From Nitrosopumilus sp. b3 (GTDB lineage Archaea; Thermoproteota; Nitrososphaeria; Nitrososphaerales; Nitrosopumilaceae): a DNA stretch of 64,000 bases. The stretch spans positions 248,001-312,000 of the forward strand of contig NZ_MU078693.1 in NCBI RefSeq assembly GCF_014078525.1, in the 5' to 3' direction. Position numbers and translations under genes: made by a program. How positions within the stretch are numbered: position 1 is the first letter of the stretch; the number at the start of each line of letters is the position of its first letter. The notes under the pieces were generated by a model. That model did no database searches, was not told where the DNA came from, and saw only the letters and a list, made by a program, of their open reading frames with translations. Positions 30,550-37,443 of the stretch are shown in pieces.

Positions 30550-31455
30550 ATGGTAAGTAAAGGAAAGGATCTATGTCCAAGATGTGCACAAGGAAAACTA
30601 GTTACTGATAATGAATCAGGAGAAATGTTTTGCTCAAAGTGTGGATTTGTAATTACTGAAAAACTACAAGAGGCAGGACCTGAATGGAGATCCTTTACCC
30701 AAGATGAGGGTGGAAGCAAGGCAAGAGCTGGTGCACCAACATCATTGACAATGCATGATATGGGTCTTGCAACAATTATCAACCCTGTAAACAAAGATGC
30801 ATCTGGCAGACCACTAACATCGTCTATGAAAAGCACTATTGAAAGACTAAGGACTTGGGATAGCAGAAGCCAAGTTCATGAACCAGTTGATAGAAATTTT
30901 AGGCAGGCATTTAGTGAATTAAACAGACTAAAAGACAAACTAGCAATATCTGATGCAGTAATTGAAAAAGCTGCATACATTTACAGAAAAGCACTAGAGA
31001 AAGGTCTAGTTCGAGGTCGTTCCATTTCTGCTCTTATGGCATCAGCTCTTTATGCTGCATGCAGAGATACTGAAACTCCAAGAAATCTCAAAGATGTAGA
31101 GCAAGCAGCTAACATCAAAAGAAAAGATATTGCAAGATGTTACAGATTACTAGTCAAAGAACTTGATTTGAAGATGCCAGTAACTGATTCAATTCAATGT
31201 GTTGCAAGAATTGCAAGTAGAATTGGAATTGCAGAGAAAACAAAAAGACATGCAACAAAGGTTCTAAAAATGGCTCAAGACAATGAGGTATCAGCTGGAA
31301 AAGATCCTATGGGTTTGGCAGCAGCAGCATTGTATCTATCTTGTGTGAAAAACGGTGAGGATAAGACTCAGCGAGATATTGCAGAAGCAGCAAATGTTAC
31401 TGAAGTAACCATTCGAAATAGGTACAAAGGCCTCAAAGAATCATTAGATCTATAA
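30550..31455 (+). CDS. tfb: Transcription initiation factor B (TFB), second paralogue
   Basis: 301 residues. Canonical zinc ribbon CPRC and CSKCG near residues 8-31, B-reader (EWRSFT) and linker, then two cyclin repeats with recognition helix (NVTEVTIRNRYKGLKE). Unlike the paralogue at 27,383 its ribbon has normal C-x2-C spacing. A TATA-like AAATACC lies about 28 bp before the ATG. Multiple TFBs allow promoter-set switching in archaea. Confidence 0.95.
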   Translation: MVSKGKDLCPRCAQGKLVTDNESGEMFCSKCGFVITEKLQEAGPEWRSFTQDEGGSKARAGAPTSLTMHDMGLATIINPVNKDASGRPLTSSMKSTIERLRTWDSRSQVHEPVDRNFRQAFSELNRLKDKLAISDAVIEKAAYIYRKALEKGLVRGRSISALMASALYAACRDTETPRNLKDVEQAANIKRKDIARCYRLLVKELDLKMPVTDSIQCVARIASRIGIAEKTKRHATKVLKMAQDNEVSAGKDPMGLAAAALYLSCVKNGEDKTQRDIAEAANVTEVTIRNRYKGLKESLDL

Positions 31456-35980: not shown

Positions 35981-36020
35981 TTCATAAAATTATAAATACT
36001 TAAAGTTACTATAGTAGTTA

Positions 36021-36158
36021 ATGTCAATAGATATAATTTCTATCGACTAAAACTGCGTAACCCCGCAGAACGTAAAAGGTAATCAGACATTTAGCATCTG
36101 AGAAGGAGAGGAAATCTCTCAAAGTTCTGCAATGAAGGGGTTTACGCCTCTTTTAATT
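36021..36158 (+). ncRNA. Candidate structured non-coding RNA, unknown family
   Basis: A TATAAAT box at 35,991-35,997 is about 27 bp before a likely start near 36,021, and TTTTAATTTT near 36,151-36,160 could end transcription. The segment is richer in G+C than its surroundings and folds as nested helices: GCGTAACCCC (36,055-36,064) with GGGGTTTACGC (36,137-36,147), and directly inside it GCAGAAC (36,065-36,071) with GTTCTGC (36,124-36,130). Two hairpins sit in the enclosed junction: TCAGA/TCTGA (36,083-36,101) and GAGAG/CTCTC (36,106-36,120), plus a small hairpin at the 5' end. No open frame of note. Not tRNA, 5S rRNA, SRP or RNase P RNA. Confidence 0.6.
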
Positions 36159-36584
36159 TTGTAAAATATCCACAGACACAGAACCCATTGTATTGCCATT
36201 TGGATTAATAATAATCATAATTTCTTGTTTCTCTGAAATCAAAATATTTTCTTTGCCAACATATTTCCATGTAAAATATTCAGAAATTCCTGTTTGGTGC
36301 GATGTACCCTCAAGTATAAAATCTTCAGAAAAATCAAAATTTTCCCCATTCAATTTAATTGATAAAACCTCTGGACTACTTCCATTTGGAACAAATCTAA
36401 ATGAATAATGACCTTCATTAATAAAAAATGAATTACTATAGACCCCATCAGAATATAGACTTGGATCTGCAAGAGTTACATGAAATACAATGTTATTCTC
36501 ATTCAAAGTTTGATTTGAACCAAAATTTATTAGAAAAATGCCACTTAGAACTGCTATTAGAATTATGAGAATTTTTTTGTTCAT
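36153..36584 (-). CDS. Small secreted/anchored protein, unknown function
   Basis: 143 residues from ATG 36,584 (an in-frame GTG at 36,599 adds 5). N-terminal signal/anchor helix (KKILIILIAVLSGIFLINFG), then a beta-rich extracellular domain (IVFHVTLADPSLYSDGVYSN, HYSFRFVPNG) similar in pattern to small beta-sandwich proteins. No domain recognised. TTTAAGA about 27 bp upstream is promoter-like. Its stop overlaps the 3' end of the candidate RNA on the opposite strand. Confidence 0.75.
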   Translation of the reverse strand: MNKKILIILIAVLSGIFLINFGSNQTLNENNIVFHVTLADPSLYSDGVYSNSFFINEGHYSFRFVPNGSSPEVLSIKLNGENFDFSEDFILEGTSHQTGISEYFTWKYVGKENILISEKQEIMIIINPNGNTMGSVSVDILQN

Positions 36585-36795
36585 AAAAAAGAGCTCCACT
36601 TATCCATCTTAAAGATTTTAGAGTAATAATGTGGGATTTGAAATGTTAGTTTTTATTTTTAACCTTTACAATAAAATCAAAAATTAGCCTCAAAAAATGA
36701 CGATTTCTAACGTTTATCTTTAGTTAGTAAAATTTAATGTACTGTTAACCATTATTTACACCTGAGATTAAGTACATATTCTAAAATCTATCTCA

Positions 36796-37443
36796 ATGCC
36801 TAATTTATCAAAAGATTGGTCAAAGCAACCAAAGCCTACTATATCTGAAAAAATTAATGATACGATCAAGCCTAAAGGTGCATTAAAACCAAGAGTTCAA
36901 GATGGTATAAAAAAAATTCAAATTCAAATTAAAAAATTAGATACAATGTTAACAAATTTACAAGAACGTGATGCAAAACTATTTCAAAGAATTGTAGATG
37001 CAACACAAAAACATGATACCCAAACAACCAAAGTTCTAGGAAATGAGTTGGCTGAGGTCAGAAAGGTTACCAAAATTTTAAGCGGTGCTAGAATAGCATT
37101 AGAGCAAATTGAATTAAGACTAACTACGTGTAGTGATCTTGGAGATACAGTTGTTGCAATAATGCCAACAATGGGTCTTATGAAAAATCTAAAATCATCA
37201 CTTGGAAAAATCATGCCAGGTGCTGAACAAGAAATTGGTCAAATGGCAGAAATGCTTGGTGGATTCATGACAGATAGTTTCTCAGGAGATTCAGCATTTG
37301 GAATAGATGCAACTACGAGTGCAGAATCTGAGAGCATTCTAAAAGAAGCTGCTGCAGTTGCTGAAAGTTCTACAGGCCAAATGTTCCCTTCAGTTCCTAC
37401 TGGAACTCAAGAAGCAACTACAACTAGTTCAAAATTCTATTAA
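36796..37443 (+). CDS. cdvB: CdvB-type ESCRT-III-like cell division protein
   Basis: 215 residues. Snf7-like helical core: basic first helix region (KPRVQDGIKKIQIQIKKLDT), then LQERDAKLFQRIVDATQ and LAEVRKVTKILSGARIALEQ, and a C-terminal flexible region rich in Ser, Ala and Thr. ESCRT-III homologues polymerise at the division site in Thaumarchaeota, which often carry several paralogues. A coiled-coil gene faces it tail to tail. Paralogue identity (CdvB or a CdvB homologue) cannot be decided here. Confidence 0.9.
   Translation: MPNLSKDWSKQPKPTISEKINDTIKPKGALKPRVQDGIKKIQIQIKKLDTMLTNLQERDAKLFQRIVDATQKHDTQTTKVLGNELAEVRKVTKILSGARIALEQIELRLTTCSDLGDTVVAIMPTMGLMKNLKSSLGKIMPGAEQEIGQMAEMLGGFMTDSFSGDSAFGIDATTSAESESILKEAAAVAESSTGQMFPSVPTGTQEATTTSSKFY

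Follow-up and report, generated by a model that had tools for sequence, protein, structure and literature searches.

Dual-function bacterial small RNAs such as SgrS/SgrT and RNAIII/hld are free-standing molecules that combine a regulatory fold with a Shine-Dalgarno-led open reading frame (ORF) of tens of codons, whose peptide is conserved. A further comparison is tmRNA, which archaea are not known to possess; it is small and stable, and its very short ORF closes with a stop codon. In S. meliloti, the leader-peptide attenuator RNA rnTrpL/peTrpL acts in trans (PMC7298713); it is small, folded and terminated, its 5' end carries a short ORF, and the position of the ribosome can decide the fold. 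From the marine group II Euryarchaeota, an abundant marine archaeal lineage, comes Tan1, an abundant 229-nt structured RNA without assigned function that was not in Rfam when described (PMC5069720).

Here we describe an RNA encoded at positions 36021-36158 (plus strand) of a window from Nitrosopumilus sp. b3, the window being the whole stretch of 64,000 nucleotides that was analyzed. In kind, this RNA stands between the dual-function small RNAs and the trans-acting leader-peptide RNAs. It is set apart from both by the predicted leaderless start of its micro-ORF, by a fixed ORF length combined with free sequence, and by the lack of a regulated gene downstream. It resembles rnTrpL/peTrpL in being a small, folded and terminated RNA that opens with a short ORF and, as proposed below, in its trans action and in a fold decided by the position of the ribosome. 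Unlike rnTrpL/peTrpL, it has neither a downstream biosynthetic operon nor a regulatory codon run, its ORF is nine codons long, and it is archaeal and occurs family-wide, usually as three paralogues. Like SgrS/SgrT and RNAIII/hld, it would be a free-standing small RNA carrying both an ORF and a regulatory fold, but its peptide is nearly neutral and its ORF lies at the very 5' end. It differs from tmRNA in fold and in lacking a tRNA-like domain, as judged by ARAGORN. Tan1 comes from another phylum and is longer, and the parts of its description considered here mention no micro-ORF (PMC5069720).

Structure and covariation of the RNA

The plus-strand fold of 36021-36158 has a minimum free energy of -39.1 kcal/mol, compared with -24.2 +/- 3.25 kcal/mol for shuffled sequences (z = -4.58), and none of 200 shuffles was as stable. 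The outer helix P1 comprises 10 base pairs between GCGUAACCCC (36055-36064) and GGGGUUUACGC (36137-36147), the latter with one bulged U. Nested within it are the 7 base pairs of P2, formed by GCAGAAC (36065-36071) and GUUCUGC (36124-36130). P2 leads into a junction with an A-rich strand, GUAAAAGGUAA (36072-36082), that is largely conserved in the genus (alignment A1), followed by two hairpins: H4 (UCAGA...UCUGA, 36083-36101), whose sequence is variable, and H5 (GAGAG-GAAAU-CUCUC, 36106-36120). The H5 loop reads GNAAU in two of the three paralogue types, A and B, whereas H5 of type C differs. A U-rich tail at 36148-36160, the likely end of transcription, overlaps the 3' end of a convergent gene (36153-36599, minus strand) and is found in nearly all genus homologues of types A and B. 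A TATA box, TATAAATA, lies at 35991-35998 on the plus strand, centered 26.5 bp before the ATG at 36021. The GC content is 36-43% within the RNA and 10-20% just upstream.

These results bear out the preliminary description, which had proposed two nested helices of 10 and 7 base pairs, two junction hairpins, a TATA box 27 bp before the start, a U-rich end and a contrast in base composition. It had not included a 5' hairpin, H1 (GUCAAUAG...CUAUCGAC, 36023-36047), indicated here by folding and covariation, or the ATG at the 5' end, which opens the nine-codon ORF that H1 covers. By folding, types A to C and more distant members share one common architecture.

Covariation was evaluated on 100 homologues fitted to a covariance model (alignment A3) and on a genus set aligned independently with MAFFT (alignment A1). 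Compensatory, two-sided changes occur in 31 of the 37 base pairs in A3. Shuffles give 94 alignment cells changed on both sides, where A3 has 411. Paired cells make up 91% of A3, compared with 79% after shuffling and 37-50% after sliding of the partners. None of the covariation measures on A3 was reached by any of 500 shuffles. A1 agrees with A3 on the percentage paired, the two-sided changes and the covariation score, but this agreement does not extend to the count of further pair types. Specifically, P1 and P2, the long helices for which the preliminary description had called for a covariation search, are each paired in 96% of cells, with two-sided changes in 7 of 10 and 7 of 7 pairs, respectively. 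H4 varies freely with compensation (7 of 7 pairs), and H5 is paired in 98% of cells. The weakest helix is H1 (77% of cells paired), although 6 of its 7 pairs also show compensatory change. Cells with GU or UG outnumber those with AC or CA about three to one (308 to 104), which places the RNA on the plus strand. We consider it virtually certain that this is a real structured RNA gene.

The RNA was expected to match no recognized class, and this held: no Rfam 15 family exceeded its gathering threshold in the window or in the region of the RNA, and the only match in ten diverse homologous loci was to an unrelated tRNA. A relaxed threshold gave only a chance-level match for the region (15.3 vs 80.4 bits). 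Archaeal RNase P RNA (RF00373) was rejected, as the genome has its own at C2:500705-500984 (187 bits), and tmRNA and tRNA were rejected because ARAGORN finds none in the window. Box C/D guide RNAs combine RUGAUGA and CUGA boxes with a k-turn, and H/ACA guide RNAs have a guide pocket and, 3 nt from their 3' end, an ACA box; inspection of A1 by eye showed neither an arrangement of C and D boxes nor an ACA close to the U-rich 3' end, and Rfam gave no match. We found no description of the RNA in the searchable open literature, although its transcript may have been sighted earlier in surveys of ocean small RNAs, published in subscription papers outside that search.

Distribution and genomic context

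BLAST searches detected the element in 34 of 36 other genomes of the same genus, often twice, and in none of 24 genomes from other families. A covariance model built from 51 sequences (R1) recovered it in 221 of 250 Nitrosopumilaceae genomes, including 125 of the 131 of good quality, and in 18 of 22 genera; all matches listed in a class-wide search with this model belong to the Nitrosopumilaceae. With a deeper model built from 100 sequences (R2), the element was found in all 40 near-complete Nitrosopumilaceae genomes; 27 genomes from other families gave no match. We found no copy outside the family in the genomes searched. Public contigs labeled Hyphomicrobiales, Chitinophagaceae or Nitrososphaeraceae that carry the RNA (L234, L238, L166 and L181) proved to be Nitrosopumilaceae-like DNA: they match Nitrosopumilaceae loci at about 80-93%, with kilobase-scale synteny in L166, L181 and L238, and are probably misbinned or mislabeled. 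We did not find the element in the viral contigs, plasmids and phages searched, and an origin from these was rejected.

Genomes carry one to four copies. Most Nitrosopumilus and Nitrosarchaeum genomes have three, one each of types A, B and C, and a single genome has four. The source genome encodes type A in the window, type B at C2:371308-371445 and the more distant type C at C4:481995-482122. One genome contains a tandem pair 306 bp apart (L129:2001-2432), in which each copy has its own TATA box and micro-ORF. Decayed copies were also observed (L261 and L271).

There is no near gene downstream on the plus strand, as the preliminary description had noted: 36153-36599 holds a convergent neighbor, and not until 36796 does another plus-strand ORF begin. 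The convergent gene encodes a 148-aa protein with a hydrophobic N terminus and no Pfam match, and it lies beside the locus A RNA in 41 of the 100 loci, in several genera. Locus A neighbors are kept across genera, with a short-chain dehydrogenase upstream and this small convergent protein downstream. Also a conserved locus A neighbor is the ORF at 36796-37443 (plus strand), which has a weak match to Snf7 (ESCRT-III/CdvB-like; E = 9e-4, below the curated cut-off). A transcription factor B gene is located at 30550-31455 (plus strand) of the window; a gene of the same family directly adjoins the RNA in several other genera of Nitrosopumilaceae.

The paralogues have different neighbors. A type B copy faces a convergent purP-like gene and a type C copy a convergent aroA-like gene (both genes named from sequence, not from a domain search), and overall the downstream gene is convergent in 85 of the 100 loci, although these loci are related and do not represent 85 independent events. 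A cis-acting riboswitch or attenuator leader would lie upstream of, and be transcribed into, the gene that it regulates, an arrangement that does not fit these loci; the earlier view that a riboswitch is unlikely agrees with this. The unrelated and mostly convergent loci of the paralogues instead argue for a free-standing, trans-acting RNA.

A putatively leaderless micro-ORF of fixed length

The ATG at 36021 opens the micro-ORF ATG TCA ATA GAT ATA ATT TCT ATC GAC TAA (36021-36050, plus strand), which would encode MSIDIISID. A start codon and an in-frame stop are present in all 100 homologues. The ORF has nine codons in 89 of them and eight in 9, with single cases of ten (L134) and twelve (L116). 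Start codons are ATG (94), GTG (3) and TTG (3), including one manual correction (L135), and they interchange 6 times on the tree; one subclade has lost the ATG and has TTG or GTG as its following codon. Switched starts, even displaced by one codon, occur in L030, L053, L060 and L061. All three stop codons are used (TAA 54, TGA 25, TAG 21), and on the tree they replace one another at least 25 times. None of the 81 distinct ORFs has a stop within codons 2-9 of its frame, whereas the other two frames are broken in 53 and 22. Three copies first missed at the edges of the model (L139, L150 and L135) show nine-codon ORFs when read from the TATA box, as do all 19 further intact copies, mostly of type C, which were examined after the pattern was noticed. 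The decayed copy L261, a natural control for frame conservation, has lost both helices and the frame.

In 85 of the 100 homologues the start codon follows 22 nt after the end of the TATA box, and in 13 more 21-25 nt after it. Given the geometry of archaeal promoters, the 22-nt spacing suggests that transcription starts at or next to the ATG. Ordinary genes in the window show only a weak, broad bump in TATA-to-ATG spacing near 21-26 nt, which does not firmly establish a local promoter rule. At the other end, the stop codon lies 3-4 nt before P1 in 89 of the 100 homologues.

The encoded peptides are far more variable than the frame. Among the 100 homologues there are 74 different peptides; type C examples include MEKRVNYKP, MQNRVNYNE and MVKRVNYNK. 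Between close pairs pN/pS is 0.78, a value that is only a guide, given the overlap of the ORF with H1 and the non-independence of the pairs. K-D and I-D recur in type A peptides and in some relatives, and the peptide itself may still be important, although H1 pairing could also cause this recurrence.

From these comparisons of sequence, start, frame and stop appear to be under selection, and we infer that the RNA is transcribed and translated. Selection on translation of the micro-ORF is very probable. As length, frame and stop are kept while the peptide is near neutral, the act of translation, rather than its product, seems to be what is selected. The earlier picture of a purely non-coding structured RNA is therefore retained in part: its structure and its own TATA promoter stand, but every homologue carries a frame-conserved, putatively leaderless micro-ORF.

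A possible ribosome-driven switch and its alternatives

We propose that the element belongs to a family of free-standing structured RNA genes in the Nitrosopumilaceae, and that its micro-ORF is selected as a device for loading and positioning a ribosome, not for its peptide. Transcription would begin at the AUG or within one or two bases of it, from the TATA promoter. A ribosome would then enter by leaderless initiation, unfold H1, read nine codons and terminate 3-4 nt before P1. Ribosome footprints are about 28-30 nt, and the mRNA enters the ribosome roughly 12-15 nt in front of the P site. By this geometry, a ribosome at the stop codon should have opened the 5' half of P1 with its leading edge, and with the ORF and stop codon spanning about one footprint (30 nt) there should be no room for a second ribosome behind it. 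The RNA could thus alternate between a ribosome-free state, with P1 closed and the three-way junction complete, and a ribosome-loaded state, with P1 open and its 3' strand free. In this way it may report on or regulate translation in trans, above all leaderless initiation and termination. Selection on frame and length but not on the peptide is what would be expected if the arrival of the ribosome, and not the product, were the signal.

Our confidence differs among the parts of this proposal. The switch at P1 and its action in trans are hypothetical, and the switch mechanism at P1 is a tentative suggestion that we would not call probable. No conserved alternative fold that uses the opened P1 was found among the two candidates examined. 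A pseudoknot joining the U-rich tail to the A-rich junction is suggestive in two sequences but unsupported overall, and an alternative terminator hairpin with the P1 3' strand, suggested by a pattern scan, was unsupported when tested. Mimicry of a Shine-Dalgarno sequence by the H5 loop was rejected by eye, as the key base varies and type C lacks the loop. The explanation as a whole, which joins a structured RNA family, selected translation of the micro-ORF and a ribosome-driven switch acting in trans, is plausible but falls a little short of what we would call likely. It is rather doubtful that the RNA represents a ribosome-gated class, present in several copies per genome, in which a leaderless nine-codon ORF of fixed length and free sequence docks exactly one ribosome at the closing helix and so reports or controls translation in trans.

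Alternatively, the element could be a dual-function small RNA, in which the folded 3' domain base-pairs with mRNAs and the micro-ORF yields a functional nonapeptide. The conservation of the single-stranded A-rich junction in the genus and the K-D and I-D recurrences in part of the peptides would suit such a role. Purifying selection on the peptide would then be expected, and the 74 peptides and pN/pS of about 0.8 speak against a single peptide function. The junction sequence is conserved no further than the genus, which makes a common mRNA target across the family unlikely. We regard this reading as unlikely overall.

A leader-peptide attenuator that has lost its regulated gene or lies far from it, with the terminated leader acting alone, would account for the order of promoter, short ORF, folded RNA and U-rich end, and trans-acting leaders have a precedent in rnTrpL/peTrpL (PMC7298713). 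This is improbable given a downstream gene that is mostly convergent (85 of 100 loci) and differs between paralogues, ORFs without a run of one amino acid, and the lack of a conserved alternative terminator fold.

The start and stop codons could also be by-products of the initiator sequence and H1 in a purely structural, non-coding RNA, as archaeal promoters favor particular start bases and H1 covers the ORF. However, the stop codon lies outside H1 and all three stop codons interchange, GTG or TTG replaces ATG as the start even where the start has moved by one codon, the frame is kept through changes in length, and the pairing of H1 is the weakest of all the helices, which together leave this explanation quite improbable. 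Antisense regulation of the convergent neighbor (36153-36599 and its counterparts elsewhere), suggested by the convergent arrangement and by the constancy of the locus A neighbor across genera, is most improbable, as the RNA and that gene share only about ten bases, the paralogues face unrelated genes (hypothetical protein, purP-like, aroA-like) and the conserved part is the fold, not the tail.

Returning to the ribosome-driven switch, a fixed ORF length combined with a changing peptide is an unusual evolutionary signature, and it suggests an RNA switch of a new kind. The ocean's most abundant cells include the Nitrosopumilaceae, which perform much of the ammonia oxidation there; to our knowledge, almost nothing is known of their regulatory RNAs. 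The RNA described here is nearly universal in the family and multi-copy, and its absence from Rfam 15 means that it is also absent from annotation pipelines built on that release. A ribosome-driven switch of this kind would open up RNA-based control of leaderless translation in archaea.
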